A stretch of 64,000 bases of DNA. Origin: Isoetes taiwanensis. Its lineage: Eukaryota; Streptophyta; Lycopodiopsida; Isoetales; Isoetaceae. Location: NCBI GenBank assembly GCA_021234155.1, contig JAJEKV010000059.1, positions 3,718,571 through 3,782,570 of the forward strand, given 5' to 3'. The position numbers and the translations under genes were made by a program. The notes beneath the pieces are model-generated. The model saw nothing but the letters and a program-made list of their open reading frames with translations. It did not search any database and was not told the origin of the DNA. Below are positions 15,436 to 55,297 of the stretch, one piece after another. The first letter of the stretch is position 1. Every line of letters starts with the position of its first letter.

Positions 15436-18055
15436 CGATACGTTTTTACCTAGACAATAATCTATACTACGTAACCCAGTTACAATAACAGCTATTGTTC
15501 AAGGTAAAGACATTTCCCAAATATCCACCCTGGATTTTACCCCAGGCCACATAGGGACAAATCCGATCTACCTATGGATCCAAGATATACTAACCATTTT
15601 TTCAAATATAGCTTTGAGTTTGTTTTACAAGACAAAATCTACTCATGTATTTTAAGGCATAGACTTGTATTTCCATATCAAATTTTCATGTTACATATAC
15701 CATCAATATTCAGCATAAAAATCAGCATAAAAATCATTTTATTTTCCTTATTATGCATCGTATACATTACCTATTCTTGTAACTTTTTACCCATTTCACA
15801 ATATCAGCCTGTATATATAATCAGATTTTGCAAAATACTTGTCTTTTACAAACAATGCATCTTTTGAGCAGCAACCTTTAGTGTTTATACAAACCTACAA
15901 ATCATATTATTTGATATGCCATTTGCTAGGCAGAACCTATGGAAAGATCTCACCCCTGTTATCTTCCAGATAATATTGGGGCAAATCATGTTCATCTTCA
16001 CAGCAACCAGCAAAAAGAACCAATACCAGAGGAGGAGTAGTCTTGGTTACCTGCACCCAAGCACTACCAATGTTAGCAAAAATCATGGTAACAAGGTAAG
16101 GGATGTCGTAAGTCAGAAGACTACTACGGCTTATCGCCCTTCACCCATTGGTTACATTACGCTACTTAATTTCAAATCGAAAGCGGTTAAATCATAACCA
16201 ATTTTGCAGGTCAAAAACCATGATATTATACCAACTCATATGCTGCTTACCACAGCAGCGATCTAGCCCAAATGGATTACAAAGTAATTCCACTAATATA
16301 GCTAAGCCATTATGCTAAGTTATCCCGATGTAATCGATCCCGAAAGCACATCTACACCATAGATAAGCATATACATTGCCTACAATACCGTTTTATCTGC
16401 ATAAGTACTTCATATTTATTATGCCAACAACAACCACGTACCATAACCTATTTAAACTATTAGAACCCCTGCACCAGCTAAAAAACAGCCATCTATATTA
16501 TGTGAGCTGCTATCAGGACCTATCCATTTTATGGACATTAAGACTATATCTAAGTCTGTCTATGAGCCACCTATATAGGCTCCACGTTTATGATATGCTA
16601 ATGAAGTGCAAAAGCATGAATCGTGTCCAGGCATAAAACCCATGTCAATCACATATCAATCTTAGCACAAAATGTCAGTAAACCCTGAATAGCAGGCTTA
16701 ACTATGATCATCTACACTAAGATCAAAGCATTTTAACCATAAAACCCTAAAATCATAAAATCCAGCACCATACACATAGGCTTATTGCATCTGTTACCAG
16801 AACAACCACATCGCCACAAATGGTTACAAGCATAGAGAATCTGTTGTCATATATCAGATAGAGAAAATATTTACGGATAAAGTCCTAGTGTATTAACTTA
16901 AGCAAAGACTTGTGTCTACAAAGCATAGGCAACATCGTGTATCGGAAGTAATAAGACATCTGAACTCCTCACCATCATGCCTCATGATATCAGCTATCTT
17001 TAGAAGACCCATGTTAAACAAAAGGCAACTATCTGTTAAGACCCTTTACTCACATCCAATCCCAACTTATACCTTTTCAGTTCCACAAATATAGCTTTTA
17101 CGGTTTACCCATCTTATTATAGTTTATCCATCTGTGAGCTCTCCATATTCAAAGAAATATCTTTTCTTAATCAGTATGTCCTATGTTTAACTATTCCTTC
17201 TTATTTTAAATCGAAAATAAGTTCTTAAAACATGATTTATACCTGTGTATTTAAGGCCCCAGACCCTCGGGGATTGCCGCTTGAATGGGTGAATTCTTGA
17301 GCCATAGTTGTTTTACCAAACTTTCTCGGTGGTAAATTGCCAAAGATGAAAAGCTTTGCTCTTCTTTCCGTGCTTACGTTCAGTAAACACCTTTAGGCAT
17401 ATCTTGAGCTCCTCGCCACCCTTGCACCAATGATGATGCTTGAGATCGAACAAGCCTTTCCGGACTGAAGAAGTGGCATTTTGTTTGCCGCTCATTCACC
17501 AGTATATCTGAAATATTACTAAGGCAAAGCCCATTCCCGCTCATGGAATCCATCATAATTAGCAAAATCCGATCTATTGAATACCTTTGGCTACCATTGG
17601 ACTGGGTCCGCCCACATCCATAACTCTTAGGGGCTTAATCGAGCCTATTTGCTACACTAACCTCAAAATGCATGAAAATTAAATAATAATTTGAGAAAAT
17701 AACCATTACGCACAAATAGCCATTATAGATTTCGATACCATCAAAATGCTTCACTTAACATCGAAATTCGAATATTTACTTTTATTTTTCTTGGAAAATT
17801 CAGCAAGTTATAACCTTTAATATATGTTGATACTATAAGTATCAACTACCAAAACCATAAGAACAACCATTACATACGTATATGCTCCCATTCTTTATAA
17901 GAAATAAAACCATATAATCTCAAACTTAGGCCTAAGCCTTTTCGAATGTCCAAAACCCCAACATATTTTGGCCAAGAATCAAAAACCAGGTAGCATTGCA
18001 TAATTCCTCACCATGCAGGTTAACCTTCAATCCATGAGCATAATTCCTACTAGGA
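15436..18055 (-). repeat. Long direct repeat unit a (candidate 3' pseudo-LTR of the RT element)
   Basis: It is collinear with unit f (37133 to about 39730), including identical short frames (15574 versus 37273, 15916 versus 37603, 16376 versus 38060). Differences are mostly at CpG sites plus one small duplication near 15720. The head shared by the family starts at CGATACG and contains TTCAAGGTAAAGACATT...CCAAATATCCACCCTGG. The right end is truncated: homology to f stops near 18040, about 200 bases before f's TTC tract, and the sequence passes straight into the middle of unit b's head. The strand is that of the RT body. No protein-coding function is proposed. Confidence 0.85.
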
Positions 18056-20713
18056 GCCCCAACACATATCCATCCCGAAGCGCTACTACCTGTGCCACAA
18101 CCAAGGAAGGCACATTACCTAAAGATATGAAAATAGAATAGTAAAGTAGTAAAGCATTATTTTAGAAGATCTATTAAATCAGAGATTGTAACCATGTATG
18201 ATCAAAGTAGAGACATAAAATATTATTGTAGATTATTCCTATGTATGATAAAAAATAAAGACAAAGTATTCCTCAGAATTATTCTCATCTATGTGTCAAG
18301 GAAAAAGTAGAGTTACAAAATAAATGTAGCTTTAGTTACGCCCAGTAATTCCATCTCCACGTTAACGCCAACCCTAACAAAGAAATAAGAGACAATTGAG
18401 GAGAGAACCCGCACTGCAGCCAATCAATACACAATTAGCGTGAAAACCAAATGTGCAAGGGCCAAAAGGTACATTGGGTCTCTCGCCTTTATCACCGATC
18501 ACCAATTGTATCCTTTTGCCCCGAGGTGACGTTAGCAAGACGTAATAATGGAATCTTAGTTTCAAAACTTCCCATAAAGTTTAGACCTTAAAGCTTAGAT
18601 TAGTAGTATGGCATAAAGTTTAAGATCTCTCATAAATTTTACAAAATATATCCGGCCAAAATTGAAATCATTTTTCCTTCTATGTAGATCATGTATAATG
18701 ATACGCTTTCCAAAGAAATAGAGTAGAACTAGTATGAAAACAATTTATCATTTAACATCTACAATCTTAAGGCTTAAGATCTCTAGATTCAAGGAAGAAA
18801 TGTGCAATTTGAACATAAGGTGAACCCTCAATAATTTCACCAAGTTTCAGGCGTATTTTCGCTTTTGATGCACGCAGTAGCTACTCTTATAAAATTTAAA
18901 GAATAAGCACCAAGCAAAGATTATGTGAAAAGCTCCACGTGACATCCAAGACTTCTTGCCTTCTTGCCTATTACATGATGTGCATATATCGATGGCTTTT
19001 TTCTTTGTTGTAAGAAAAGCATTATCCAAAGTCACAGGTGATACATTTCAAATGGATTTTCTAATGCTATGAGAAAAGCATTTTTCAAAAAAATATTATG
19101 CACCTAAATCAAATATTATTTTATCTAACCCGATTATTGCATTCATATCGCAACAATTTGCAGATTTGCCCAAAACCACCATTATGATGAAGTGGCCCAA
19201 CTCGTTTCGTAGATCTTCCATAAAAGGATGGATGGAGAATGCCAAAAGCATGCTTGTCAAAAGCATATATGCACTATCTACAAACATTTTCAACCCTGCT
19301 TTTTTGCAAAAGTTCAGAGCAACCAGTGTTCTCAATCATAACAAGGCATAACAAGGATCTCTTTAAATTTCTTTTCCAAAAATCGCTTTTACCTCGGCAA
19401 GCTATGGCGATCCCGGCAAGCACCTAATTTTTCCGTGGCAAGCAATGACATTCTTTTCTATACTTCCCAGAGAATCCATCTAAGAGCAGATTAACATGCC
19501 ACGATTTTGCCAAAAGGCATATCAAGTTATTTATACATAACCATTTAGGCAAAGATTGCACCTTTGTCTCGTGATCAAAAAAGTCATGTAAGCATTTGGC
19601 GGCCATTTAAGGCAGAAGTGCTTATCGGCATGTAATCCCCCTTTTTTTAACAGCTTGGCTCTATCCATGTGCATGGAACATCTGCATAATGGCCAATGAA
19701 CTGTAGTCACGATCCTTGCTCTATTATCTTAGAGCAAGCAAATAAGGCCTTTGGCGGTAAAACTATGTCATGCGGCCAGTCTTTAGCGGCCATAAAGTTA
19801 CAAAGAAAAGCCCCAAATGCTTCTATTACCCAAACATATATCGAGCTCTTTATTTGCTCAAAGTCGGAAAAAAGGTATATGCAGCTCTTTTATTTGCTCA
19901 AAGTCAGAAAAAGATAGGCCCTTTCATGGCTATGTCGGCCATGGTTATTATGCCACAAAGTCCTTAAAAGGACAATAGGCAACAAATCATTTTTAAGCAA
20001 ACCCAAACTTATTCCTTAAGGCAAAGCGTGCCTTCTAAGGTTTGCCATAATTTCAATTTGTTAAAGAGTCATCATAGATAGTACAATATCTTTGAAAGCA
20101 TCAAAAAGCAGTGTATGTCTAAAGATAGCTATCCAAGTTGCATATTTACCTTTTTGCATGGTTCCAACGTACCATTAATTAGTTGGAGGTACACATCCCT
20201 TCCAATAAGCACTATAGTCATCTCCATAGACTTAATCCAACATTTAAATGTTAAAAATTCACAAGCAAGATGCACATGAATTTTTTGTATGAATTTTCCA
20301 TATCGAATGTCATATTCACACATGGGATTCCTTTATTTGTCTATAACATCCCCTTGTCATGTGATGCCACACTGCTTTTGCAAAAAGCCTGGTATATCTA
20401 CCTTAGTTTGGATTTTCCAAATTATTTTTCAGCTTACATCTAGTGAAACATGCAATGTGGCTCTGCCGACCAAGCAACACATCTAGTATTATGGCAGTCA
20501 TGGCTCTATAGACTCATGGCTCTATAGACGCCCTCAGCTAAAATTGTAGTATGCACTAAGTCATTTTGCATTTCCAAAAGCCAAATTGGCCCTAAACCTA
20601 TTATGTACATAACTCATATATTAGATGCATATTTAAGCATTTGTCTGCCATATAGGCCATACGCCATTAAAAAATTAGAGAAGAGTTTCTTCTTCTTCTT
20701 CTTCTTCTTCTTC
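18056..20713 (-). repeat. Long direct repeat unit b, head-truncated, ending in (TTC)9
   Basis: It matches unit c (21341-24005) almost throughout: the block from CCAACACATATCCATCCC to GCCATACG is present in both in the same order. About 85 bases of the family head are missing compared with c, because the unit starts at a junction with the end of unit a. It ends in TTC repeats at 20687-20713. The small frames inside (for example 19166-19351 and 20289-20486) recur at matching places in unit c and look non-coding. Confidence 0.85.
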
Positions 20714-21255
20714 TCCCACAATCCCTCCCTCAGGATGTAGGATACCTCTTTTTACAAGGAAAGTAGGACCCCCTTATAAAAAGAGGGGTCCTACTTCCTT
20801 ACACCAGAAGAAAACAGATTCAAAGAATCTTTAGCTCAGTATCAAGTTCTTGTATCATCTGTATTTGAAATAGTATAAGGTGCAGTGGACCAAATACCAT
20901 ATCCGCTGTAGCAGATAATTTGAGAACTAGCACAATGGACTAGTTCAAGACCTGACAAATTATCAGGGTTTTATAATTATGAGGTACATGGGGCACGATG
21001 GGCCCTAAGTACCATGGACAACCTGTTATAGTATTTATGATAACATCTGCTATCAAAACTTAAATTCTTATAAAAAGGAAATAATATACAAACTAACCTG
21101 GCTTGTATAAGAGATTCATTTGCCAGATAGCTCCATCAGGATTTTGAAAAAGATACCTCCATCAAAATATGAGAAAGTAAAGATATCCGAATTTAAATGT
21201 GTAAGACCAACCAATTGTGCATGCCGATATCTCCAAAGAAATGGAAGTCACTTAA
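20714..21255 (-). mobile_element. Spacer 1: deleted, non-autonomous derivative of the RT element body
   Basis: On its left it begins CCCACAATCCCTCCCTC and a hairpin, arms 20737-20759 and 20772-20794, about 20 of 23 positions paired. The same arrangement follows the TTC tract at 27131 and at 30811 next to the RT stop. On its right it ends GATATCTCCAAAGAAATGG-AAGTCAC before the head of unit c, matching the sequence just before the head of unit f (37100-37124). Both ends of the RT body are thus kept while RT and the companion ORF are lost. No coding frame. This supports a small non-autonomous element made of b + spacer + c. Confidence 0.65.
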
Positions 21256-24005
21256 TTCTTCTTCGACACATCTTCACCAGACTACTAATGATTATAGTAA
21301 AAACAATTTACTAAACCCAGATTCGCTCAAGGTAAAGATTACCCAACACATATCCATCCCGGCGCTACCTGTGCCACAACCGGAAGGCACATTACCTAAA
21401 AGATATGAAAATAGAATAGTAAAGTAGCAAAGCATTATTTTAGAAGATCTATTAAATCAGAGATTGTAACCATGTATGATCAAAGTAGAGACATAAAATA
21501 TTATTGTAGATTATTCCTATGTATGATAAAAATAAAGACAAAGTATTCCTCAGAATTATTCTCATCTATGTGTCAAGGAAAAAGTAGAGTTACAAAATAA
21601 ATGTAGCTTTAGTTACGCCCAAAGAATTCCATCTCCACGTTAACGCCAACCCTAACAGCAAATAAGAGACAATTGGAGGAGAGAACCCGTACCTGCAGCC
21701 AATCAATACACAATTAGCGTGAAAACGGTAAATGTGCAAGGGCCAAAAGGTACATTGGGTCTCTCAGTTTATCACTGATCACCAATTGTATCCTTTTGCC
21801 CTGAGGTGACGTTAGCAAGACAGAATAATGGAATCTTAGTTTCAAAACTTCCCATAAAGTTTAGACCTTAAAGCTTAGATTAGTAGTATGGCATAAAGTT
21901 TAAGATCTCTCATAATACGCTTTTACAAAATATATCCGGCCAAAATTGAAATCATTTTTCCTTCTATGTAGATCATGTATAATGATACAGTTTCCAGCAA
22001 ATAGAGTAGAACTAGTATGAAAACAATTTATCATTTAACATCTACAATCTTAAGGCTTAAGATCTCTAGATTCAAGGAAGAAATGTGCAATTTGAACATA
22101 AGGTGAACCCCGAATAATTTCGCCCAAGTTTCGTGCGATTTTCGCTTTGATGCACGCAGAGCTACTCTTTATAAAATTTAAAGAATAAGCACAAGCAAAG
22201 ATTATGTGAAAAGCTCTCCACGTGACATCCCAAGACTTCTTGCCTTCTTGCCTATTACATGATGTGCATATATCGATGGCTTTTTTTTCTTTGTTGTAAG
22301 AAAAGCATTATCCAAAGTCGCTGTGATACATTTCAAATGGATTTTCTAATGCTATGAGAAAAGCATTTTTCAAAATATTATGCACTAAATCAAATATTAT
22401 TTTATCTAACCCGATTATTGCATTCATATCAAGAACAATTTGCATTTGCCCAGCCACCATTATGATGAAGTGGCCCAACTCGTTTCAGATCTTCCATAAA
22501 AGGATGGATGGAGAAATGCCAAAAGCATGCTTGTCAAAAAGCATATATGCACTATCTACAAACATTTTCAACCTGTTTTTTTGCAAAAGTTCAGAGCAAC
22601 CAGTGTTCTCAATCATAACAAGGCATAACAAGGATCTCTTAAATTTCTTTTCTGAAAAATCAAGCTTTTTACCTGGCAAGCTATGGCGATCCTGGCAAGC
22701 ACGAATTTTTCCGTGGCAAGCAATGACATTCTTTTCTATACTTCCTGTAGAATCCATCTAAGAGCAGATTAACATGCCACGATTTTGCCAAAAGGCATAT
22801 CAAGTTATTTATACATAACCATTTAGGCAAAGATTGCACCTTTGTCTCAGATCAAAAAGCTGTATGTAAGCATTTGGCGAAGCCATTTAAGGCAGAAGTG
22901 CTTATCGGCATGTAATCCCCCTTTTTTTTAACAGCTTGGCTCTATCCATGTGCATGGAACATCTGCATAATGGCCACGAACTGCAGTCACGATCCTTGCT
23001 CTATTATCTTAGAGCAAGCAAATAAGGCCTTTTGGGCGGTAAAACTATGTCATGCGGCCAGTCTTTAGCGGCCATAAAAGTTACAAAGAAAAGCCCCAAA
23101 TGCTTCTATTACCCAAACATATATCGAGCTCTTTATTTGCTCAAAGTCGGAAAAAGGTATATGCAGCTCTTTATTTGCTCAAAGTCAGAAAAAGATAGGC
23201 CCTTTCATGGCTATGTCGGCCATGGTTATTATGCCACAAAGTCCTTAAAAGGACAATAGGCAACAAATCATTTTTAAGCAAACCCAAACTTATTCCTTAA
23301 GGCAAAGTGTGCCTTCTAATGTTTGCCATAATTTCAATTTGTTAAAAAGTCAACATAGATAGTACAATATTTTTTGAAAGCATCAAAATTCATTTAATGT
23401 GCTATACATTTGAGTGTACGTCTAAAGATAGCTATCCAAGTTGCATATTTACATTTTTGTATGGTTTCAACGTACCATTAATTAGTGTTCTAACATTGAA
23501 GGTACACATCCCTTCCAATAAGCACTATAGTCATCTCCATGGAATTAATCCAACCTTTACATGCCAAAATTCACAAGCAAGATGCACATGAAATTTTTTG
23601 TATGAATTTCCATATCGAATGTCATATTCACACATGGGATTCCTTTATTTGTCTATAACATCCCCTTGTCATGTGATGCCACACTGCTTTTGCAAAAAGC
23701 CTGGTATATCTACCTTAGTTTGGATTTTCCAAATTATTTTTCAGCTTACATCTAGTGAAACATGCAATGTGGCTCTGCCGACCAAGCAACACATCTAGTA
23801 TTATGGCAGTCATGGCTCTATAGACTCATGGCTCTATAGACGCCCTCAGCTAAAATTGTAGTATGCACTAAGTCATTTTGCATTTCCAAAAGCCAAATTG
23901 GCCCTAAACCTATTATGTACATAACTCATATATTAGATGCATATTTAAGCATTTGTCTGCCATATAGGCCATACGGTCTTCTTCTTCTTCTTCTTCTTCT
24001 TCTTC
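21256..24005 (-). repeat. Long direct repeat unit c, ending in (TTC)9-10
   Basis: The complete family head starts at TTCTTCTTCGACAC (21256) and continues CATCTTCACCAGACTACTAA...AAGGTAAAGATTACCCAACAC. The body is collinear with unit b. The TTC tract at 23977-24005 passes directly into the head of unit d with no intervening sequence, showing that elements of this family abut at TTC tracts. Confidence 0.87.
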
Positions 24006-27000
24006 GATACATCTTCACCAAGACTACTAACAGATTATAGTAAAAAACATTTTTACTAAACCAAATACCATTAAGTTCAAGGCAAAGATTACCCAACACA
24101 TATCCATCTGGCGTTACCGCTATCAAAAGCCTTATAAAAGGAAATAATGTGCCACAACCGGAAGGCACATTACCTCAAACAGTATATTATAGTTATGAAA
24201 GTAGAACAATAAAGTAGCAAAGCATTATTTTTAGAAGATCTATGCATTAATCAGATTATAACAATGTATGATCAAAGTAGAGATATAAAATGTAGACGTA
24301 AAAAATATTGCGTAGATTATTCCAATGTATGATCCAAATAAAAACATAAAGTATTGCGTAAAATTATTCCCATCTATGTGTCAAGTAAAAAAAATAAAGG
24401 TACAAAGTAAGTGTAGCTTTTGTTACTGTATATGATCAAAATAAAGACATAAAAGTATTACTTGTAAATTATTCCCATCTATGTGTCAAGTTAAAAAAAT
24501 AGAGGTACAAAGTAAGTGTAGCTTTGAGTTCACGCTTCAATGAATTCCATCTCCACGTTAAGCGCCAACTCTAACAAACAAATAGAGACAATTGGAGGAG
24601 AAAACCGTACACTGCTGACCAATCAATACACAATTAGCATGATAATGGTAAATGTGTAAGGATAAAAGGTACATTGGGTCTCACTCATCATGTTGATCAC
24701 CAATTGTATCCTTTTGCCCCGAGTAGACATTAACTAGAAAGAAAACTGGAATAACAAATATTTTTAGCATTATAAACATCTCAATTAATCTCTAGTTTTG
24801 TATCATAAAGTATAAGATTATAAGCATTTAAAAGTATCATACAGTTTTTGTATCATAAAGTATAAGATTATAAGCATTTGGAATAATGGCGTGCTCAACA
24901 TTTTTAAACTTCTCAAATTGAACTCAAGGTTGTACCATCAAGAGAACCAATTTCTTGGCCCTAAATCTAGCGCAGGTTACCATGATTTTCAATTCTATTG
25001 GCATAAGGCTCAAGATATCGTAATCAATTTAGAGCATAAAATCCATCAATAGAATGACCATTTTAGCTTGTAGAAAAGTAGATGTGCTTTTATCAGGAGT
25101 AGAACAAATAATCCTTTTCAAATCCTAGAGAACTAGGTAAGTGGTGATCTCATTTGTGCATGTAGGATTTTCTTTAAGCATTAGCCCAATGTCACACACT
25201 ATTTGTAGCATATATTCCAAGATATGGAACAACCAAACAGATTTTGTATGAGCAGAATCACCTTTCAATACACGGATCAACTTCTGCCTAATAAGTATAC
25301 TATTTCTCCATGAAGAAGGTGTATTTTAATTCTATCTCTTATGCCTTTAAAAAAATCAAATATGCTATCAAGCACAAAATAATACCTCTATAAGAAAGGA
25401 CATATATGTAGCACACTCAAGCGAGCATAGAACTAATTGGATTAACCGGATATTTTAGCGGACACGAATAGAAGCCTTGGTACCATAATAACTTGTCTTG
25501 CATCCTCGATTGGAAACCTCAAACATTGGGATGCATTTTCGATCTTTGCCTACTCATCAATCTTGAGAACCAAAGCATTTGCTTTTGTGCTTTTAGAAAG
25601 ATATTGAGTCAATTTCTTGTTAGAAGCCCAGGGCTTAGAGGGCACGTTATATGCCACATTCATCAAATCTAATTTTAACTAACTAAGAAAATATCACTAA
25701 GATCACATCACTGTTTTAAGGCATCAATCAGATACATACCTAGTCGTTGTTCTTCCGGCATGGGAACCAACATGTCTTACTGTCGACCAATTTACGTGTA
25801 TGCTCCACATATTGGTCCATAGCTCTTCTAGATAATATCGACATCAAATAAGCTCGAGCAAAGCTTTTTGAGACCTAGTCATTTGGAGCCACAAAGCTTG
25901 CAAATAAAATTTTTGATGGAATGCTCTTCCCTCATATGTATCGGATCATTATACCCGGCCGGAGGCTATATTAGGGATCTACAGCCATCAACGAATCATT
26001 TATATGGAAGCACCATTGCAAAAAAACATGATATAATCATAGGCATCATCGGGATGAATCTTGTGCATAAACTGTTTATATACAACAAATCCGGAACTAT
26101 TTATGTATGTTTGGATCACCGAAATTAGCTTCTGACGGATATCTTTTCCGCCAAGGTTTTAATACGCTTTTTGAAGCCATGAAACTTATCTTTGTGCAAA
26201 GAACAAATGGAATCGGCATCGATCCGCGAGTTCGATCCCGGTACTAAAAGAAGCAAGTCATATAGGCTGACCATTAGAAACCAAGCCTCCATTGGCGGAC
26301 CGGCAACAATTAACGAGTCACAAAAATTACAATACATTATTTTTAGTCTAAAATACTTTTTATTTGCTTACCACTATTAAGGTTTTAAACGCAAGTAAGA
26401 TGCCATCGGCTCCTTTATTGTTGCTATGTCTTTGTATCACAAGCTTTTTGCCATATACGCTAACGGCCCCACAAACGATGTTAAGTGCAAAGTGCCAATT
26501 TTGAAAGGGCTTCTTTGCTTATCTCAAAGTAGTCCCGAATACTTTAAAAAGAGCTTTTGCCTTTTCATAAAAGTTAAACCATGTAACAACAATATAATTC
26601 TCCTTTGCTTTCACGTGTATCCATATACAACCATAGTATCTTTGTCCTTTTCGTATGCCTAAGCTTTGTATATAGGAAAATCCTACTAAACCATATCTTG
26701 GTCTTTTTCTTATGCATAATCTTTTTTATAGTAAAATCCTATTAAACCATGTGTTATAAAATATTACATGCAAGCATGCCCACATTACGTTTTTGGGACA
26801 TGTCGAGATCTGTTCTCTTTCAATGATTTGCAAAATCAAAAAAGAGAATATTCTCTTCTTCATTATGAGGAAATTTGGCCCCCCTACAGGTAACCATAAA
26901 TCCCCACCATAAATTATCCATTAATAAACCATGATGCCCCATGAATGTTTCCATGGCAATAGTCTTAGAAAAAATGAGCATTATGATGGTTCCAAGGTAC

Positions 27001-27130
27001 CAAGCTTCTTTGTTTTCCAAAGTCCCAAGCTATATTCCATCCCGGCTTGCCTTTATACCATTCTATCATCTCAAAGAAGAGAAGACCGGAAGAGAATATC
27101 CTCTTCTTCTTCTTCTTCTTCTTCTTCTTC
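24005..27130 (-). repeat. Long direct repeat unit d, ending in (TTC)9-10
   Basis: Its head (CGATACATCTTCACCAAGAC at 24005) and 3.1 kb body match unit e (27706-30810). Shared blocks include a 40-base tandem doubling around 24800-24880 (TATCATAAAGTATAAGATTA twice), which is also doubled in unit e near 28465-28545. Parts near the left end also resemble units b/c: the CATCTATGTGTCAAG...TGTAGCTTT block and the CCAATCAATACACAATTAGC block. All units therefore belong to one superfamily. Confidence 0.85.
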
Positions 27131-27705
27131 TCCCACAATCCCTCCCTCGGGGATGTAGGATACCTCTTTTTATAAGGAGAGTAGGACCCCCATAAAAGAG
27201 GGGTCCTACTTCCTTACCCGAAATAAAATAGATTCATAGAATCTTTTAAATCATTAACAAGTTATTTTATCATCCGTATTTAAGTAGTATAAGGTCTGGT
27301 TGCCCAAATACCATATCCATGCAGAGATAAGTCGAGAACTAGCATGTGGACTAGTTCAAGACCGACAAATTATCGGGATTTTTTGAAGGTGAGGCACCGG
27401 GGCATAGTGGGCCCTTAGGGTGCCATAGATAGCGGATTCTGATATTAACCATAACACTTGCTTCGAGAACCTAAAGTCTTATAAAAGAGCATTAATAAAC
27501 AAAGCCCCGACTGGTTTGTATAAGAGATTCGCGTTTGCCGGATCACTCCATTAGGGTAACAAAAAAGATTCATATGCTAGATAACTCCATAAAGATATCG
27601 GAAGAGATAACCGTAAACATATCAAAAGTAGAGCTATCTAAAACTTACATAGGTAGCGCCAACCAATTGTGCATGCGGATATCTCCAAACAAATGGAAAT
27701 CCGAT
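27131..27705 (-). mobile_element. Spacer 2: second deleted derivative of the RT element body
   Basis: It has the same organisation as spacer 1: CCCACAATCCCTCCCTC, a hairpin (arms 27155-27177 and about 27190-27209), the ACTAGTTCAAGACC-GACAAATTATC block, GCCAACCAATTGTGCATGC and GATATCTCCAAACAAATGG, then the head of unit e. No open frame of interest. It forms the interior of a d + spacer + e element. Confidence 0.65.
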
Positions 27706-30810: not shown

Positions 30811-30829
30811 CCCACAGCCCTCCCTCGGG

Positions 30830-30902
30830 TAGTAGGACCATTCTTTTCATAAGGTACAACATAGGATGTAGGACCCAACTTATGAAAAGAAGGGTCCTAC
30901 TA
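30830..30902 (-). other. Conserved hairpin just downstream of the RT stop codon
   Basis: The arms 30830-30853 and 30879-30902 are complementary at 23 of 24 positions, with a 25-base loop. The stop codon of the RT is at 30919. Equivalent hairpins with different arm sequence occur in spacers 1 and 2 at the same place relative to the (GAA)n tract. Compensatory-looking variation suggests that structure is maintained. Possible roles are RNA 3' end recognition by the RT or transcript termination; neither is shown. Confidence 0.75.
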
Positions 30903-30918
30903 TCCTAACCTATAACAA

Positions 30919-32142: not shown

Positions 32143-33932
32143 CTGTAACGGATATAAGGGTTTGCCAATCCAATCTTATGGGAAAGCCTGTGTTATAGCT
32201 TCGGATGCACGCCAAGGTAGGGAATAGAAAACCAGAAGCGGCTGTTGTTGGCCGTGAAGATGCATTACGGTGTTATTTACTTAGAGGGGGATACCAGGGT
32301 CTGGTATTCCCTTATATTTATATTAAAGTATTAACTTAAGGTTTTGGCCACTTGAATATTGCTTCCTAGTTCTAAGTTATAGAGGCCTTTGCTTGAAATC
32401 ATGTTATATGGAACCATAGAAACCGAGATAGTGCCAGGGTTGTGGTATTGTGTTAAGGGAATCTTTTATGAACTCGGTCTAAGAATAGATTTGTTTATGC
32501 TTGAACTTGTGAGGTAAGTTGAATTATATTACCTAATAATATTGAACGCCACTTCTCCTAGGGAAAGAAGGGCCTGAGGGAATTTATGGAAGCTCCTGGG
32601 CATAGTGCAGCCATGGAACCTTATAAGCTTAGTAGAAAGCATGTGTCTAGCAAAGTAAACAAGTTGAGCTAACGAATGGAATAAACCATAATAAGATATG
32701 TTGATATATTCTAAACTATTGAACGTGGCTTAGGGTTATAGTTAGGTGGTTGCCCTAACTATAATGGCATGCCTTGGGTTAGTATAATGGCTCGTTGTGT
32801 ATGTATCTCCATGCCATTGTTGATAACCTATCTATCTGTCTTGACCTGTATGCTGGCCATTGTGGCATGTGTTTATTTGTGCGCCTAGATAGCTGGTATA
32901 TGCATTGAGCATGAAGACTCTTATGAACCTTTTTAAGATATTACCTGAAAGTTATGGCTGCTTATATGTTTAGGGAGTTCCTGTTCTTGCTTGAGATGTG
33001 CAATGACGTGTTGTCACTTGGATATGAAATATCTTGGTATGAACCTTATTGTGTTGCATTGCTCTATGGTTGTTCTTGGAGGTAAGATGCATGAGGATTC
33101 TATCTGGAGGAACAAAGTAAAGCTCGGCTTAAAGCAAAGACCAGCCACGCTTTTCACAAATCGAGAGGTCTTTGGGTTCCGTGGCTTGGCCCAATCATGA
33201 TTTTGCTATTCGCAACAAGACTAAGTTCTACCACGGACAAATTTGGAAAAGGCAGAGTTCAAAGCAAGAATCGGGTGTAGCAGCCCATGCCGGAGAGGAT
33301 CACATAATCGTGAATCAGATTATACCATGAGGGTCGGGTGTTTCAAAGGCATCGAATTGGGTTCGGCCTCGCAAGTAATTCTGAGGATGAACACAATAGC
33401 CCTTTTAATATCGCAATTAAATTCTTCTTCGAAATCCATGAGATGCACACAAGCAATCCCCAAATATGCATCAAATCCCCACCTTAGTTTTTAAGATATG
33501 CCTCTGCTCCAAAATCGGTCTGCGCCTCCTTTGCATCCAAATTACGGTTCTCTTGTTTTCTCCACTTCCTTCTCCAATTCGGCCAGCCCCTCTGTCCTCT
33601 TATATACCTTTATGACCAGCACATGGCAAGCTATCTTGCTGCCGGAAGATCCCTGCCGGTGTAAATCCGGCATGCTACAAGTCAAATCACGCAAGATCGG
33701 GCTTTATTTGGCCCGATTTGCTTGTCGATACTTCTCAACTCAATTCGATTTTGGTTCCCCTATTTTTATGGTGCTCACCCATTTGGACATCATAAATTAA
33801 GGTTTTTAAATAACCTTAGCTACTATATTTTTATACTTTAATAAATGCTACCACTAGCATGACCCATGGACACATACCAACAAGGCCTTTAGAGGATCTG
33901 CACAACAAGGTAAGCCACTAGGTTCGTTACAC
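32143..33932 (-). other. Probable 1.79 kb intron (or insertion) inside the RT gene
   Basis: The upstream coding frame runs to K-E-R and is followed by GTGTAAC (donor GT at 33932). The downstream frame begins after CCGTTACAG (acceptor AG at 32143-32144) in the same phase and continues directly into the fingers strand of the RT. The gap contains only small open frames on either strand. It is AT-rich in part, with one GC-richer stretch at about 33100-33760. Introns in Penelope-like elements have been reported. A secondary insertion cannot be excluded, although I see no terminal repeats. Confidence 0.6.
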
Positions 33933-34790
33933 TCTCTCTTTATATGGGCAATCCAACCCAAATTTTGTTAGGAGCTCATCTGCAAGCCTATTCATCAGCA
34001 CATCTTTGCTAATTTTATATTTCTCAAAGTCAGGACTATGCAGTCTGATCCTAGCCATCTCCCTAATGTGCCATGGGCATATGAATGCTGGCACATTCGA
34101 AGCTTTATCTACTCCAGCAACATAAAGATTTTTAATAAGCCAGTCCATACCATTAATAACTTTTGTATCATATATAGCACACTTTCTCCTTTTCTGTGAT
34201 TTAATCAGCCCTTCCATTTTATCTTTCATAAGTCTTAAAAAGCTACTTTTAATACCAGCTTTCTCATATGGGTGTAGTATCCTACCCCGCCCTTCATGTT
34301 TTTCAAAGAACGTGTCCATTCCATTACTGATTTCTTCCAAAAATTCTTCTATGCATATTGGTTTATCCGGTATAAAGTTCAGTCCCTTCTTAAACATGTT
34401 TCTTAGCTCTCGCGCTTTGATGATGTTCAGATCCATAGTCCTAACATGTCCGATATCTTTGTCAATAAAATTTTCCATGCCAGGTTTATGACACACACAT
34501 CTCGGGACCTCTTCCGCAGCAAAGATTTGAAAAGGCTTATAGACATAATCCACAAGTTGTTTATCATATTTCCATCCAAATCCAGTATCAGCCATTATAT
34601 TCTCGCCAAAGTCTCCAAGTCTCAGCAGAATATATTCCTTAATACATTGCCGAATATTAATTGTATCCATTATTTTGGATAGGAAAGTAAAATGTATTCT
34701 GACCTTTTCCCTATTATTTCCTTTTCCATTGCATAATATCCTCCTCCCATTGGAAGCCCGTATAATCTTTCTCTCATGTAGAACATCCTC
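33933..34790 (-). CDS. Reverse transcriptase, N-terminal exon
   Basis: An uninterrupted frame of 286 codons begins after a CTACACAG acceptor (exon from 34790). The longer open frame to 34805 would start at TTG, and a stop lies only three codons upstream of the acceptor, so this is best read as an internal exon. It contains a C-x-C motif (R-C-V-C-H-K), then G-H-V-R-T-M-D-L-N-I-I, L-R-N-M and K-G-L-N-F-I-P. In the same RT family this 'C.C...F.D...GHV.T.DL.II...LR.L..KG..F' block precedes the palm. It ends G-L-D-C-P-Y-K-E-R at a GT donor. There is no endonuclease domain. The basic segment K-S-Q-K-R-R-K may help nucleic acid binding or nuclear entry (inference). Confidence 0.75.
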
Positions 34791-35436
34791 CTGTGTAGAA
34801 CACAATATTTTTCAGTGTCATATAGTAGTCTGTACGTTTATGTAAGAAATGAGCAACATGAATATTTAAAATACTATGTAAACAATGCTGTGCCACCTTG
34901 GACAAGTCATTATATATCAGTTTGGAATATCCCTATGACTAACAGATATATCACTAAATTACCGTGTTCAAACTCCAAATAACTTATGCCATGTCTTATG
35001 GGCCATAAAGTGCATGCAGTGCATGTAGCCCGCATACTTCAAGACATAAGAAATAATCAATTCTACTCAAAATTATGTCGTGCAATTCTATTTAAAGGTC
35101 CTAAGACCAAGCCGCATATTTTATTATATTAGATATATAAGTACAAAAAGTTGAACATTAGTTCTGGTAACCAACGTATGATGCTGGTACAAAAAATAGC
35201 TGGTACAAAAAACAGCTGGTACAAAAAACAGCCTTCCATATGGCTGAAACTACAAAAATTTCATTGCTATATACGTGTGTTCTCTCGCAATGTGATATGG
35301 TATATTCTGCTATAAAGATATCTTTATGAACTACGCACTAAGGGCAACAGTGGGCCCAAAAGTGCATTCTGCAATGGCAGACAATCATGTATTAGTGCAG
35401 TGGACTAATAACATGAATATATATGATGATCATAAC
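34791..35436 (-). other. Non-coding segment between companion ORF and RT exon
   Basis: There is no reading frame of note. A small tandem repeat, CTGGTACAAAAAA-type units of about 17 bases, occurs three times at 35183-35233. The segment starts (minus strand) at a canonical GTAAGT donor and ends at an AG acceptor, so it may be an intron, but the two sites are in different phases. Either a further small exon lies here or the two frames belong to separate transcripts. Confidence 0.45.
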
Positions 35437-36942
35437 TTACCAATTATTATCACCATATTGCAGGCGAGCTTGTTTCAGCTCAGTGCCTCTAAGAAACCCA
35501 TCCGGACGTGCTCCTTTGTTAACTGATGCTTCACCAGGAGTACTAGAGACAATGGAATCTGATAGATCAACTATATTATTTTCAGTCCTGAAGCTAGCCT
35601 CATTACTATTTCTTGCTACCCTGGGTGGCAAGTAGGACAAGCAACCACCTTTTGAGCCATGAGTTGGAGCTGAAGGTGTGGCTTCAACTTTATTTTTCTG
35701 AAGCTTTTTATCCATAAAGGCCTTGTCCTTAATCATTAACTCACAGACCTCTACCAGTTTAGAGTTCCCAAAGATGCTTTGCAAGTCAACATCCGGGTAT
35801 GCAGCAAGCTTATTAGTGACTTTCACCATCATTTCCCTAACTTGCATATATGCCAGTTGCGCCATAATTGGTGTCTTCAGGTTTTGTTGTATGTAAAACA
35901 AGAAGGAGGCCATTCTTCCAGCTTGTGAATACCTTGGGTAAACTTCTTCCAAGTGATTGAACACATACCATAATGCTTGGTCAAACCACGTAATGGAATC
36001 ATTGCAGGCAGCTTTGCAATTGCATTTGAAATACGGACTAAAGCTCCTCCAAATTCTATGTAGATATGAATAATTTCTTTCCGTGTCCGGATAGCCCATG
36101 TGGGCTTTAACAAACATGGTAGTACCTGTATTATTCAAACATTTCTTGTCAAAAAGATTGGTGCTAAAAGGGAAGTGAAATTCCACTTTGTCAACCAGCT
36201 TAGTAAGGTTGTTGGCAGAATCTGTTATCATCATCATATCTTCAGCATTAATAGCCCCCATAATACACCAGGCCTTGACACTAATAGGGGCCAAAGTGCC
36301 GTAATTAAAGCTCCTCCAGAGCGCATGTTGGAATTCCTCGCCCAGCCATTCTATAGCCATCTCAGAGATTATCGGGAAACGAAGACAATTGTGTAAAGTA
36401 AGTCTTATCAGTCCTTCTGCAGTAGGTACTACCATAGTGGCTTCCTTCTCCTTTCTCATCACTTCCCGGTCTTCATTTGGTAGATATTTGGCAAAGCCCT
36501 GCGTAGGATTCAGCTCAATGATACTATTTTGTACATTTTGCACACAAGTTTCAGCTTCAAAGGTAACATCCTCATGCTTATGCACTTTCTCCAGGTATGT
36601 CACACCTAGCTTGAACTCCAGGGCTAGAACATCATCAATATCAGTCCTATCAGCCAGGATACCTTGGGTTTCCGCAAATACCTCCTCCATAATATTCATG
36701 CATTCAACGGGGTCCATGTTCTTCTGATCCATCTTATTGAAAATTTCAAACCAGGAGCTGAAGCCTAGATGGTTAATAGGTGAGAAATACCCTGCACTCA
36801 TGTTCCTATGCCTCCGAAGAATATCTTGGTGAATATCACTGTTGGAGATCATACACAAGACAGATTGTACAGCCATATTTGGAGCATCTCCTGCTTCTCC
36901 ATATCCCATATCCAGCAAATGTTTCAGCCAGACAGTTTTTTT
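35437..36942 (-). CDS. Companion ORF (ORF1) of the RT element, ~500 codons, function unknown
   Basis: A long uninterrupted minus-strand frame lies upstream of the RT in the same direction. The longest reading from 36918 begins at TTG. The first ATG is at 36909, and the frame stays open upstream to a possible acceptor (TTACAG, exon from 36942). At the 3' end the last codons contain a perfect GTAAGT donor (36 to 41 bases into 35437-35442, sequence TTG-GTAAGT), so the true exon may end at 35443. Visible features are many Met and aromatic residues, a C-N-C-K-A-A-C cluster in the middle (near 36010-36030), and a polar tail rich in Ser, Asn and Lys. No zinc knuckle, protease, endonuclease or transmembrane segment is evident. 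I do not recognise the family. Position suggests an ORF1-type accessory protein, or a host gene fragment carried along. Confidence 0.6.
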   Translation of the reverse strand, partial: KKTVWLKHLLDMGYGEAGDAPNMAVQSVLCMISNSDIHQDILRRHRNMSAGYFSPINHLGFSSWFEIFNKMDQKNMDPVECMNIMEEVFAETQGILADRTDIDDVLALEFKLGVTYLEKVHKHEDVTFEAETCVQNVQNSIIELNPTQGFAKYLPNEDREVMRKEKEATMVVPTAEGLIRLTLHNCLRFPIISEMAIEWLGEEFQHALWRSFNYGTLAPISVKAWCIMGAINAEDMMMITDSANNLTKLVDKVEFHFPFSTNLFDKKCLNNTGTTMFVKAHMGYPDTERNYSYLHRIWRSFSPYFKCNCKAACNDSITWFDQALWYVFNHLEEVYPRYSQAGRMASFLFYIQQNLKTPIMAQLAYMQVREMMVKVTNKLAAYPDVDLQSIFGNSKLVEVCELMIKDKAFMDKKLQKNKVEATPSAPTHGSKGGCLSYLPPRVARNSNEASFRTENNIVDLSDSIVSSTPGEASVNKGARPDGFLRGTELKQARLQYGDNNW

Positions 36943-37126
36943 CTGTAATTATACAAATCATTAGTGATAAATATCAATGCTATGAACATTGTACACCTCT
37001 TCAAAGCCTATATCCATAAGAGAATGAACTAGATCATATGCAGCATATAATATCCAAATCAAACCAAACCAACGGTAGATCAGATGATGTGTTTGCTAGA
37101 TATCTCTAGCAAGTGGAAGTCACAAT

Positions 37127-39945
37127 TTCTTCTTCGATACGTTTTTACCTAGACAATAATCTATACTACGTAACCCAGTTACAATAACAACTATTGTTCA
37201 AGGTAAAGACATTCCCCAAATATCCACCCTGGATTTTACCCCAGGCCACATAGGGACAAATCCGATCTACCTATGGATCCAAGATATACTAACCATTTTT
37301 TCAAATATAGCTTTGAGTTTGTTTTACAAGACAAAATCTACTCATGTATTTTAAGGCATAGACTTGTATTTCCATATCAAATTTTCATGTTACATATACC
37401 ATCAATATTCAGCATAAAAATCATTTTATTTTCCTTATTATGCATCGTATACATTACCTATTCTTGTAACTTTTTACCCATTTCACAATATCAGCCTGTA
37501 TATATAATCAGATTTTGCAAAATACTTGTCTTTTACAAACAATGCATCTTTTGAGCAGCAACCTTTAGTGTTTATACAAACCTACAAATCATATTATTTG
37601 ATATGCCATTTGCTAGGCAGAACCTATGGAAAGATCTCACCCCTGTTATCTTCCAGATAATATTGGGGCAAATCATGTTCATCTTCACAGCAACCAGCAA
37701 AAAGAACCAATACCAGAGGAGGAGTAGTCTTGGTTACCTGCACCCAAGCACTACCAATGTTAGCAAAAATCATGGTAACAAGGTAAGGGATGTCAGGTAA
37801 GCTGTAAGACTACACGGCTTATCGCCCTTCACCCATTGGTTACATTCTGCTACTTAATTTCAGATCAGAGCAGTTAAATCATAACCAATTTTGCAGGTCA
37901 AAAACCATGATATTATACCAACTCATATGCTGCTTACCACAGCAGCGATCTAGCCCAAATGGATTACAAAGTAATTCCACTAATATAGCTAAGCCATTAT
38001 GCTAAGTTATCCTGATGCACTGATCCTGAGCACATCTACACCATAGATAAGCATATACATTGCCTACAATACCGTTTTATCTGCATAAGTACTTCATATT
38101 TATTATGCCAACAACAACCACGTACCATAACCTATTTAAACTATTAGAACCCCTGCACCAGCTAAAAAACAGCCATCTATATTATGTGAGCTGCTATCAG
38201 GACCTATCCATTTTATGGACATTAAGACTATATCTAAGTCTGTCTATGAGCCACCTATATAGGCTCCACGTTTATGATATGCTAATGAAGTGCAAAAGCA
38301 TGAATCGTGTCCAGGCATAAAACCCATGTCAATCACATATCAATCTTAGCACAAAATGTCAGTAAACCCTGAATAGCAGGCTTAACTATGATCATCTACA
38401 CTAAGATCAAAGCATTTTAACCATAAAACCCTAAAATCATAAAATCCAGCACCATACACATAGGCTTATTGCATCTGTTACCAGAACAACCACATCGCCA
38501 CAAATGGTTACAAGCATAGAGAATCTGTTGTCATATATCAGATAGAGAAAATATTTACGGATAAAGTCCTAGTGTATTAACTTAAGCAAAGACTTGTGTC
38601 TACAAAGCATAGGCAACATCGTGTATCAGAAGTAATAAGACATACGAACTCTGTACCATCATGCCTGCATATCAGCTATCTTTAGAAGACCCATGTTAAA
38701 CAAAAGGCAACTATCTGTTAAGACCCTTTACTCACATCCAATCCCAACTTATACCTTTTCAGTTCCACAAATATAGCTTTTACGGTTTACCCATCTTATT
38801 ATAGTTTATCCATCTGTGAGCTCTCCATATTCAGCAGTATCTTTTCTTAATCTGTATGTCCTATAAGCGAACTATTCCTTCTTATTTTTAAATCGAAAAT
38901 AAGTTCTTAAAACATGATTTATACCTGAGTATTTGCGCTCCCAGACCCTGCAGGATTGCCGCTTGAATGGGTCGGAATTCTTGAGCCATAGTTGTTTTTA
39001 CCAAACTTTCTCGGTGGTAAATTGCCAGCATGAAAAGCTTTGCTCTTCTTTCCAGGCTTACGTTCGTAAACACCTTTAGGCATATCTTCAGAGCTCCTGC
39101 TCACCCTTGCACCAACGGACAGTAGCAGTATCAGAACAAGCCTTTCCGGACTGAAGCAGTGGTATTTTGTTTGCCGCTCATTCACCAGTATATCTGAAAT
39201 ATTACTAAGGCAAAGCCCATTCCCGCTCATGGAATCCATCATAATTAGCAAAATCCCAGTCTATTGAATACCTTCGGCTACCATTGGACTTCGTCCGCCC
39301 ACATCCATAACTCTTAGGGCTTAACTGAGCCTATTTGCTACACGAACCTCAAAATGCATGAAAATTAAATAATAATTTCAGAAAATAACCATTACGTACA
39401 AATAGCCATTATAGATTTCTGATACCATCAAAATGCTTCACGAACATCGAAATTCCGGAATATTTACTTTTATTTTTCTTGGAAAATTCAGCAAGTTATA
39501 ACCTTTAAGTATATGTTGATACTATAAGTATCAACTACCAAAACCATAAGAACAACCATTACATCTGTATATGCTCCCATTCTTTATAAGAAATAAAACC
39601 ATATAATCTCAAACTTAGGCCTAAGCCTTTCAGAATGTCCAAAACCCCAACATATTTTGGCCAGTAACTGCAAAAACCAGGTAGCATTGTACTCACCATG
39701 CAGCTCCATGAGCATAATTCCTACCAGCCTTCAATAGCCAGTTAACCTTCAATCTTCATGTGTAGTGGACGATAATTATAATATTATTCGGGGAGTGCAT
39801 CTAGAGCCATATATTTACCCCTCATATTTCCAATTCACTAGGATTTGCAGCACCATTCAGAGGGCATATATGTAGACCACTATATAATTGAATGAACCTT
39901 ATTTCAATCTTACCTATTAGCCAACCATATAAGCAAGAAGAAGCC
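37127..39945 (-). repeat. Long direct repeat unit f (candidate 5' pseudo-LTR of the RT element)
   Basis: The head TTCTTCTTCGATACG starts at 37127 and is preceded by the body end GATATCTCTAGCAAG-TGGAAGTCAC. It is collinear with unit a to about 39730. It then continues about 215 bases not present in a (TCTTCATGTGTAGTGGACG...) up to the TTC tract at 39946. Frames inside (37273-37554, 37603-37800, 38060-38320) duplicate those in unit a and are not considered genes. Confidence 0.87.
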
Positions 39946-40052
39946 TCTTCTTCTTCTTCTTCTTCTTCTTCTTCTTCTTCTTCTTCTTCTTCTTCTTCTT
40001 CTTCTTCTTCTTCTTCTTCTTCTTCTTCTTCTTCTTCTTCTTCTTCTTCTTC
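39946..40052. repeat. Pure (TTC)n tract, about 35 repeats
   Basis: An uninterrupted TTC run about 107 bases long sits between unit f and the head of unit g. The poly-Ser and poly-Arg frames across it are artefacts. Confidence 0.97.
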
Positions 40053-42684
40053 GGATTATCTTCACCAAGATTACTTTCCACAATATGAAAAACAAGTTTT
40101 ACATATATGGATTTGGTTCAAGGCGAAAATGACTGACACGACATATCCACCCTGGGTTTTACGCCAGGCCACAACCACACTGACTGTAGTATTCAAATAT
40201 TCAGCAATAACATATTCATAGCAAAGTATTCAAGAAAACATATACTATCACAATGAATAAAGAAGAGAATGCAAGAGTCAAATGTAATCAGATTTCAATT
40301 AAAATCAAATATTTTCTAATTCATAATGTAAAAATATAGAAGACATAGTGTACAAGTCAAATATAATATGATACTAGTGTTAAAATCAAATCTTCCTTCG
40401 GATCATCAGATAATTTCAGATTATTCTTAGTCAATCCACAAAACAAACACTATGCACATGATTTACAATCGAAAATTCAGAATTTCAGAATTTGTATTCC
40501 TTCATAACCACCAGAAAGGTCTCACCAGATAATCTTGTACCATAATTAGCAATCCTCGTAAGACTGCTATGTACATCCCAGCATATGACAAAACATCTAG
40601 GAGATGTAGTCTTGGTTACCTGCACCCAAACAGACCAACATTAGCATATTAATGGTAACGAGGAGAGGGGTGACAGGTAAGCTATAAAACTACATGGCTC
40701 ATCGCCCTTCACCTAAAGTTTAGTCATATTCAAAGTAGAATATCAAACTTTTCTTACTGAATTCTTATATTCTAATCAAGACAGAATATAAGCTAAAAGA
40801 ATGCTGCCTAAGTAAGCATCCTCACAAGTACTGCATTTCAGCAAATTATGATACAACATATAATATTCAAGTCACTAAATATGACTAAGTCCGGTTTAAA
40901 GCCAGAATATTTAACACATGAGGTGCTTTTTGCAGCTGCCTTGCCTGTGTCAATGCCTTAACCATCAATTCAATGCCAAGAACCAAATAATAGAACTACT
41001 ATAACTATTCCAAATGGATGGATGTTATATTTTCACATAAAATCAGCATTTGAATATGGGAATGGAAGCACCATTACACTATTAGCTCTATTTTGTATCT
41101 CATAAGCACATTCAAAGCGGTCAATCAATCAATCTGCACTATAAAAACCCTGTGCAAAGCCATCATATTATGCAGAGAAATGTGCAGCATTATTAAAACA
41201 AAAGCAAGGCGCAAGCACCTACAGCAACCTGAAACCTCATATTAGGAAAGCCTTATAAAAACTTGCAACATCTAAGAACATGAATAAGCACCTAGATCTA
41301 GCTGTTAACTTATAACCTGCCAAAGCAAATGCTAAGATAGAGCGCAACAATGCACTATATACCAAGGCCTAAGACCTAAATCTTCCCCCAAGTAATATTT
41401 TCAATATATAATCGTTCACGGTTCATAGGCATCTGCCCAGAATGTCAAATCATATGCATCTACATTCATCTGCTAAAATGACAAAATGAGCCATAAAAAC
41501 CTGAGTAAGTTGCTCCCGCAATAAAACTTGTTGCTTGTTGTACGCTCTATTGGCACTATTTGTTGTACGTTCCATTGGTACTTCACTGCTACAGTTTGTG
41601 TAGCTATTTAGGCATCACTATAATATATGATGATCGGAACACAGCCTAAAGCAAGAAACAAAATTTTCAAGTAAATATAAATATGCTTGCCTGACTCTGA
41701 ACCACAGTAGCTACCAGCAGATATTCGAAATGGATCATGACATCTACTTCTGGCTGCAGCATAGCATTCAGGCTTCTTAAAACAACAGCGACTTGCCTCT
41801 AAGCACAAGTCGGCTACCTCCAAATAAGATAGGAATGTCTTTTTTTTATGAAACAGATTCGAATCAAGCTTTGTGGCAACTATCATTGGCTCAATCCACT
41901 ATAAATGATCTGTGTACAGAGCAAAACGGCAAGAAATGGGCGCCTATATTGATATTCAGCTGAGAGCTCTCCAAATAAACCGGCTACAGGCTCTCTGTTT
42001 CGGCAAAGGGAGAATAACTCTCTGTTTCAGCAAAAGCCCTAAATGCAAAAACGAATTTAGGGTTTCAAACCACTATTCGAACCATAAAATCCATTTATGC
42101 AAAAATATCATAGTTCTCAAAAATGTAAAAATTTCCCCAAGTGTCTCAATGCAAAATTATTTTCAAAGTACCAATTTAAGTGTCGTAGCTCTTGAAGAGG
42201 AAAGAAGCCATATAGTCTACATGCTATATAAAGAACCAAGCTTTTTAAGAGCTCCATTAATTAAGCCATATGTGGTATTCTAGAGCATTCGTCCCATATT
42301 CTACTCACGATATAAAGTTTATAGAAAAGCATATTTGTTGCCCCAAAATAGTTTAGAAAAGGTACATGCAACCCATTTGTTTTGAAGGTTACAAGTGGCA
42401 CACATGCATGCCCCATGCAACCAAACAATTACTTTATGGAGAATATAATATATGCCCATTTTCTAACCATGTAAAACAAAAATTATATGGCCCACATTTG
42501 AACCAACTTGACCATGTTTCATGTTCATGCACTTATGTATGGTCCCAAGACATGTAACTAAAGTTGCTCACGAACCTTTATATATGCACTTAGAGCTAGA
42601 TGTTGCTTTAGACACTTAGAGCTCTATCAGGATCTAGATTTTATGAGCTCAAGCATTTTGCAATGCAGTTCCAAAAGTAATATT
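40053..42684 (-). repeat. Diverged long repeat unit g of the same family
   Basis: The head follows the TTC tract (GGATTATCTTCACCAAGATTACT...TTCAAGGCGAAAATGAC...ATATCCACCCTGGGTTTTACGCCAGGCCACA) and aligns with the heads of units a and f. A second conserved block, GTAGTCTTGGTTACCTGCACCCAA...GGTAACGAGG...GACAGGTAAGC...CATCGCCCTTCACC at 40596-40720, matches 37724-37840 in unit f. Other parts are diverged. It ends in the largest TTC tract of the window. No partner copy is visible, so it may be a solo repeat or one end of an element cut by the surrounding sequence. Confidence 0.7.
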
Positions 42685-42880
42685 TCCTTCTCCTTCTTCT
42701 TCTTCTTCTTCTTCTTCTTCTTCTTCTTCTTCTTCTTCTTCTTCTTCTTCTTCTTCTTCTTCTTCTTCTTCTTCTTCTTCTTCTTCTTCTTCTTCTTCTT
42801 CTTCTTCTTCTTCTTCTTTCTTCTTCTTCTTCTTCTTCTTCTTCTTCTTCTTCTTCTTCTTCTTCTTCTTCTTCTTCCTC
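42685..42880. repeat. (TTC)n tract, about 64 repeats with one interruption
   Basis: This is nearly pure TTC with one TTTC interruption near 42817, and it degrades to TCC/CTC at the right edge. Poly-Lys, poly-Glu and poly-Phe frames on both strands across it are artefacts of the triplet repeat. Confidence 0.97.
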
Positions 42881-42907
42881 CTCTCCTCTTCTTTTTTTCC
42901 ATGGAAG

Positions 42908-55290: not shown

Positions 55291-55297
55291 GAATCGG

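Follow-up and report, generated by a model that had tools for sequence, protein, structure and literature searches.

Candidate reverse transcriptase elements with long direct repeats, nested at GAA/TTC tracts in Isoetes taiwanensis

Long repeat units and their TTC/GAA borders

The stretch of DNA analysed here, referred to as the window, comprises 64,000 bp of the Isoetes taiwanensis genome (assembly GCA_021234155.1, contig JAJEKV010000059.1, positions 3,718,571 to 3,782,570 of the forward strand), and positions are counted from its first base. It contains an array of seven long repeat units (a to g), each 2.6-3.2 kb long and all in one orientation with the coding strand being minus, together with a region at 30911-37126 (minus strand), the RT body, that encodes a reverse transcriptase (RT) and an additional open reading frame (ORF), ORF1. 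An earlier note, made from the letters of the sequence alone, had described this array as a Penelope-like RT element lying between very long repeats and accompanied by two internally deleted derivatives. BLAST comparison of the window against itself bore out both the great length of these direct repeats and their proposed pairing: units a and f (15428-18053 and 37127-39727) are 94.9% identical over 2,645 columns, b and c (18058-20713 and 21342-24005) 93.3% over 2,721 columns, and d and e (23997-27218 and 27706-30910) 88.5% over 3,327 columns, with each pair in direct orientation.

All the units lie on the minus strand. Unit a (15428-18053) meets unit b (18058-20713) at a junction placed at 18053-18058 by alignment of ends and heads, where a has lost about 218 nt of its 5' (coding) end that are present in f and b has lost about 86 nt of its head; both losses can be read as one deletion that removed no fewer than 304 nt. 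The TTC run at the end of b adjoins the first of two spacers. Unit c (21256-24005) has its head at 21256, and its 5' (coding) end abuts the TTC tract of unit d (23997-27218), whose aligned range takes in a TTC run at 27104-27130 and a hairpin. Unit e (27706-30811) meets the RT body within the TTC run 30785-30811, unit f (37127-39945) is the 5' repeat of the RT element, and unit g (40044-42680) is unpaired, with TTC tracts on either side. The head of about 130 nt, previously thought common to all seven units, was detected in six of them (a, c, d, e, f and g), that of b being lost as described above.

Across subfamilies only parts of the units align, namely the head, at 61.6-77.0% identity depending on the pair (alignments of 112-431 columns). 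Beyond the head, b/c and d/e have a further 368-397 columns in common, and a/f share 126-127 columns with g. The two repeats that flank the RT body, f and e, are alike in the head only, and the joint with e falls within a TTC tract. The body had been regarded as enclosed by a and f; what it adjoins directly is f and e, and a and f are presumably its own repeat pair.

Strict TTC/GAA runs of at least six units occur nine times in the 64 kb, and eight of them lie within the array (15.3-42.9 kb). All eight read TTC on the plus strand, two being pieces of one tract, while the ninth, outside the array, is a GAA run at 47340. The strict runs are located at the 5' border of g, between g and f, between d and c, between the RT body and e, in a degenerate tract at the 3' border of a, and also at the borders of b and d with their spacers. 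Tandem Repeats Finder and the strict-run scan delimited, on the plus strand, the degenerate tract at the 3' (coding) end of a (15254-15436, with one strict run of 7 units), a tract of 35 units between g and f (39946-40052), and one of 69 copies with 96% matches that adjoins the 5' (coding) end of g (42687-42893). Just past the latter are three copies of a 121-bp tandem repeat (43286-43650). Altogether, five of the five testable element borders are TTC/GAA tracts, the sixth, between b and a, being deleted. The earlier observations that most units end in a TTC tract and that the repeats have no TG...CA ends stand, tracts having been found at the unit borders and the units finishing in GAA. A target duplication inside such a tract would not be recognisable. 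The internal copies c, e and f end in about three GAA units ahead of the spacer or body, as would be expected of a template complementary to TTC.

Reverse transcriptase body and its non-autonomous relatives

ORF1 (35437-36948, minus strand) is open over 503 codons and has no recognised domain. The longest open run in 1,000 Markov shuffles of the same stretch was 186 codons, and the companion ORF of the earlier note is confirmed as an open frame; none of 3,196 candidates in the protein database proved to be its relative. The RT ORF (30919-34811, minus strand) is broken at 32144-33931 by 1,788 bp that were formerly taken for an intron (33931-32144). This segment has TG...CA termini with 7-bp inverted ends (TGTAACG and CGTTACA) and is flanked by a 5-bp duplication, GAGAG, being the only pair in the body to combine such ends with a 5-bp duplication. 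When the RT flanks are joined across the empty site they form a single frame of 699 codons, and the related protein P0004 aligns on either side of the insert (residues 39-277 and 286-720). The intron was therefore rejected in favour of an insertion resembling a solo long terminal repeat (LTR), of which no second copy was found within the window. A real intron may separate ORF1 from the RT, as the interval of 650 nt between them (34791-35440, minus strand) has GT...AG borders on the coding strand, starting with GTAAGT and ending with ACACAG. Three copies of a 16-bp repeat lie inside this interval (35183-35232), and a change of frame just before the RT is possible, the N-terminus of P0004 fitting either frame when aligned by eye.

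Identification of the protein as an RT is secure, because it has relatives in the protein database and carries the catalytic motifs A, B and C. P0004 is a full-length relative of 729 aa with 36% identity (E 5.5e-72; one relative among 811 candidates), and P0005 is a more distant fragment of 437 aa with 24% identity over 67% (profile E 2.2e-12; one among 3,645), although this rarity in the database shows no rarity in nature, given that the search requires shared words of five residues and that the eukaryote share of the database was unchecked. The distance between motifs A and B is 96 aa in the window RT, 100 aa in P0004 and 91 aa in P0005, versus 70 aa in a bacterial control RT; in retroviral RTs it is about half of the 96 aa seen here. 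The window copy terminates 173 aa past motif C. Pfam RVT_1 matches the three relatives at or around the region of motifs B and C, with E values of 0.0047, 0.00066 and 0.0014, none of which reaches the curated cut-off.

To which RT lineage the protein belongs was assessed with two unreferenced Penelope-type fragments and the bacterial control, a single plasmid RT drawn from 72,556 records (E 8). Against the family profile, the Penelope-type fragments gave P 8.4e-5 in a match of 158 columns that extends past motif C; against P0004 they gave P 7.7e-5 over 78 columns. The match of the control to the family profile (P 3.2e-5) spans 59 columns around motifs B and C, and its match to the profile of the Penelope-type fragments has a P of no better than 0.041. 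Penelope affinity is thus favoured by the length of the match, not by its strength, and membership of that group is likely but unproven. Further traits of Penelope RTs are an N-terminal GLNFxP-like stretch, a DK motif and an NGY or NGF in the thumb. As to the earlier assignment of a Penelope-like rather than an LTR-type RT, the identity of the enzyme as an RT is secure and its Penelope type is plausible but unproven.

Searches of viral contigs with the RT and the Penelope-type sequences gave no confirmed locus. The one locus obtained in prokaryote genome contigs, where a short peptide within a TonB-receptor-like ORF matched, was dismissed as a chance hit. Among solved structures the RT had no match by sequence, and the only match of its profile (E 0.67) was irrelevant. 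Two AlphaFold models were poor, with a mean predicted local distance difference test score of 46.5 and 38.8; the former gave 53 Foldseek matches, none at E 0.001 or better, and none were used.

Profile searches of ORF1 and the RT revealed no Pfam match to RNase H, integrase, protease or endonuclease, and no endonuclease was matched in Pfam or NCBIfam; GIY-YIG in particular had no match in ORF1 or in either piece of the RT. The rve match present in the window belongs to a separate element at 54.6 kb, a Ty3-type integrase remnant (54323-55480, plus strand; rve E 1.6e-8 at 54620-55075), and the open frames flanking this remnant look like parts of the same element.

The alignments define two spacers on the minus strand, which measure 539 nt (spacer 1, 20717-21255) and 574 nt (spacer 2, 27132-27705), in agreement with the 0.54 and 0.57 kb given before, and which form the internal regions of the elements c-spacer 1-b and e-spacer 2-d. 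The spacers are 73% identical to each other over 578 columns. With the RT body they have in common about 90 nt (about 70% identity) at one end and about 35-45 nt at the other, while their middles have no blastn match to it. They do keep short stretches of the body ends without its genes, as had been claimed, but the view that they arose by internal deletion of this body was rejected, because only these short ends are shared. The two elements are non-autonomous relatives of the RT element. Of the layout first proposed, one RT-bearing element and two non-autonomous relatives in one orientation remain, with a solo unit in addition, and the internal deletions do not.

The first shared signal is a 3' hairpin with a purine-rich stretch (30812-30912, minus strand), which is situated between the RT stop codon and repeat e and is common to both spacers, with about 70% identity over 92-94 columns; none of 3,000 random body windows reached its score against the spacers. 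The folding z-scores of this region are -3.8 in the body and -3.5 in each spacer, the fold predicted for spacer 2 differing in detail from the others. The second is a junction segment of about 35-45 nt just past the 5' repeat, found after f (37080-37126, minus strand), with similar segments in the corresponding positions next to c (21209-21255) and e (27659-27705). Again, none of 3,000 body windows scored as high against either of these two. Ahead of the 3' repeat the spacers have a purine tract of the form GGGAGGG...GGGA(GAA)n, and the body has a similar one.

Elsewhere, the window contains a GC-rich satellite-like array at about 2508-11261 with repeats spaced about 1,080 bp apart (families D7, D8, D11 and D15), an inverted repeat at 56752-56883 with 64-nt arms that are 86% complementary around a 4-nt loop, and a long pyrimidine-rich stretch at 61400-62900 with many short C/T repeats.

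Proposed insertion into GAA tracts and the alternatives

The best reading of these data is that the array is a nest of one retroelement family, Penelope- or terminon-like and endonuclease-less, whose insertions into (GAA)n.(TTC)n tracts all point the same way and were primed on TTC with a GAA template in its own RNA. The probability of this explanation is put at roughly 50%. In the element RNA, every long repeat would finish with about three GAA units, followed by the short junction segment, and the RT would bind this GAA/junction region. The GAA template would then pair with an exposed TTC 3' end, where synthesis of cDNA would begin. If synthesis began at the 3' repeat, a full element would result; if it began at the 5' repeat, the product would be a solo unit like g. 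The elements c-spacer 1-b and e-spacer 2-d and the solo unit g would rely on the cis signals of the RT element and be mobilised in trans. Each insertion would supply more GAA tract, so that later insertions would stack head to tail. In favour of this explanation are the tracts at the element borders, the uniform orientation, the GAA units at the internal borders, the end signals common to body and spacers, the relatives and motifs of the RT, its termination 173 aa past motif C, and the lack of any recognised integrase, RNase H, protease or endonuclease, together with the 5' end of unit c, the greater divergence of the inner repeat pair and the parallels in terminons and a purified Penelope-like element described below.

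Several observations weigh against this explanation. All the evidence comes from a single locus. The junction segment, to which the RT is supposed to bind, folds no better than shuffled sequences (z -1.6, 1.2 and -0.1), and the purine tract ahead of the 3' repeat is an LTR-like feature. Penelope membership of the RT is not secured, as the bacterial control matches the family profile as strongly over a shorter stretch. The Penelope-like element (PLE) PAc of the green anole, when purified, begins reverse transcription internally near the border of the pseudo-LTR (pLTR) and the ORF, which parallels the present proposal, but the site at which it starts has no homology to the cut DNA (PMC11167929), in contrast to the pairing with the target suggested above. 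Hammerhead ribozymes and telomeric repeats are features of terminons, and neither was found: no hammerhead was detected at 14000-44000 (E up to 5) or in the whole window (gathering score), a search that could miss a divergent one, and the window had no pair of telomeric repeats of the TTTAGGG type, the only type covered, with up to two mismatches allowed.

The ages of the repeats are ambiguous in this respect. Kimura two-parameter distances are 0.034±0.004 for a/f, 0.042±0.004 for b/c and 0.078±0.005 for d/e, and the inner pair d/e is thus more diverged than the outer pair a/f, the reverse of what nesting of LTR elements would allow. The difference fits repeats that are copied from the template, the mode of Penelope-like elements, or else a/f has been rejuvenated by gene conversion. 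Each repeat pair diverges patchily along its length (p 5.5e-11, 4.4e-7 and 1.2e-16), so gene conversion could explain the repeat ages, which is a further point against the proposed insertion mechanism; the patchiness allows no choice between template copying and conversion, and for this reason the ages were not used to order the insertions. By end alignment, the 5' (coding) end of unit c lacks about 24 nt that b has and so lies about 24 nt inside the b sequence, as expected if it were set by transcription or truncation and unlike LTR regeneration. No difference of this kind was seen between the 5' ends of e and d.

In one alternative, the array is a family of LTR retrotransposons with giant LTRs, regenerated during reverse transcription, and with LARD/TRIM-like derivatives of short internal region, inserted by an integrase, perhaps acting in trans, with a preference for GAA tracts. 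Direct repeats enclosing short internal regions, the purine tract ahead of the 3' repeat and the end signals held in common by the non-autonomous members and the RT element all fit such a family, which is nevertheless rather unlikely, since ORF1 and the RT have no match to RNase H, integrase or protease, the spacing of motifs A and B is about twice that of retroviral RTs, the units finish in GAA instead of TG...CA, the 5' ends of c and b differ, and the inner repeat pair is the more diverged one.

It is less probable still that the stack was produced by DNA-level recombination or tandem duplication between the GAA tracts of a few elements, with no targeted insertion. In its favour, every joint is a tract and tracts recombine readily, the repeats f and e on either side of the body are unlike, and patchy divergence suggests exchange. 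However, there are three distinct repeat subfamilies, each with its own pair, the solo unit g is unpaired, and tracts also mark the outer borders of g and a, so that they are not limited to internal joints. Finally, ORF1 and the RT are very unlikely to be a cellular, rvt-like gene related to RTs or a foreign element caught between unrelated repeats; a single copy of the body was seen, and P0004 and P0005 come with no genomic context, but the coding ends of the body are accompanied by the junction segment and the 3' hairpin of the family, with ORF1 and the RT co-oriented between them.

A broader claim, advanced only tentatively, is that these elements represent a lineage that forms a deep RT branch of its own and has neither RNase H nor endonuclease. 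In it, microsatellite tracts would have replaced telomeres as targets, the GAA template in the RNA would pair with TTC ends in the way that telomerase RNA pairs with telomeres, and the lineage would colonise itself head to tail while mobilising non-autonomous relatives. If the insertion mechanism proposed above is correct, it would explain why elements stack in one direction at GAA tracts and would tie telomerase-like reverse transcription to ordinary retrotransposition in a way that can be tested. The non-autonomous relatives allow the cis signals to be read by comparison, namely the GAA repeat end, the junction segment and the 3' hairpin with its purine tract.

Comparison with known systems

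Among the papers listed by full-text searches of the open-licence literature none showed such an element, which does not establish novelty in print. Plant non-autonomous LTR elements of the LARD/TRIM type consist of two long repeats around a short internal region, with ends shared with a possible autonomous partner. The spacer-bearing elements have a similar pair of long repeats around a short internal region, whose ends are likewise shared with a possible autonomous partner, but differ in that the units end in GAA, not TG...CA, and that the partner RT has no recognised RNase H or integrase. The telomeric non-LTR elements HeT-A, TART and TAHRE of Drosophila resemble the array in forming one-directional head-to-tail arrays of autonomous and non-autonomous members, and differ in having a LINE-type RT and in residing at true chromosome ends.

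Canonical PLEs with a GIY-YIG endonuclease, such as PAc (PMC11167929) and the Penelopes of rotifers (PMC3846280), have direct pLTRs, partial tandems, an internal start of reverse transcription and mobilisation in trans, the terminal repeats of Penelope being able to mobilise other sequences in trans (PMC3846280). These features match or parallel those observed or proposed here. Unlike the elements of this study, they encode the GIY-YIG endonuclease, have repeats of a few hundred base pairs, carry hammerheads in their pLTRs and insert into AT-rich targets.

The closest parallel is offered by the terminons and Athena elements of bdelloid rotifers. These are endonuclease-deficient PLEs that join telomeric repeats via complementary repeats at the 3' end of their RNA and form head-to-tail arrays (PMC6431247, PMC5537684 and PMC12477314). 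The likeness extends to an RT without its own endonuclease, an additional ORF, head-to-tail arrays, 5' ends next to short repeats, and a proposed pairing of RNA repeats with target repeats; the differences are that GAA replaces the telomeric repeats, that no hammerhead was found, and that the repeats here are 2.6-3.2 kb long. Of the characters by which terminons are recognised, two ORFs without a recognised endonuclease, direct terminal repeats, and a tandem or partial-tandem layout are present at this locus, whereas in place of telomere-complementary 3' ends at telomeres the ends here carry GAA. If the proposed mechanism holds, the terminon principle, in which repeats in the RNA pair with exposed repeats at chromosome ends, would have been carried over to an internal microsatellite.

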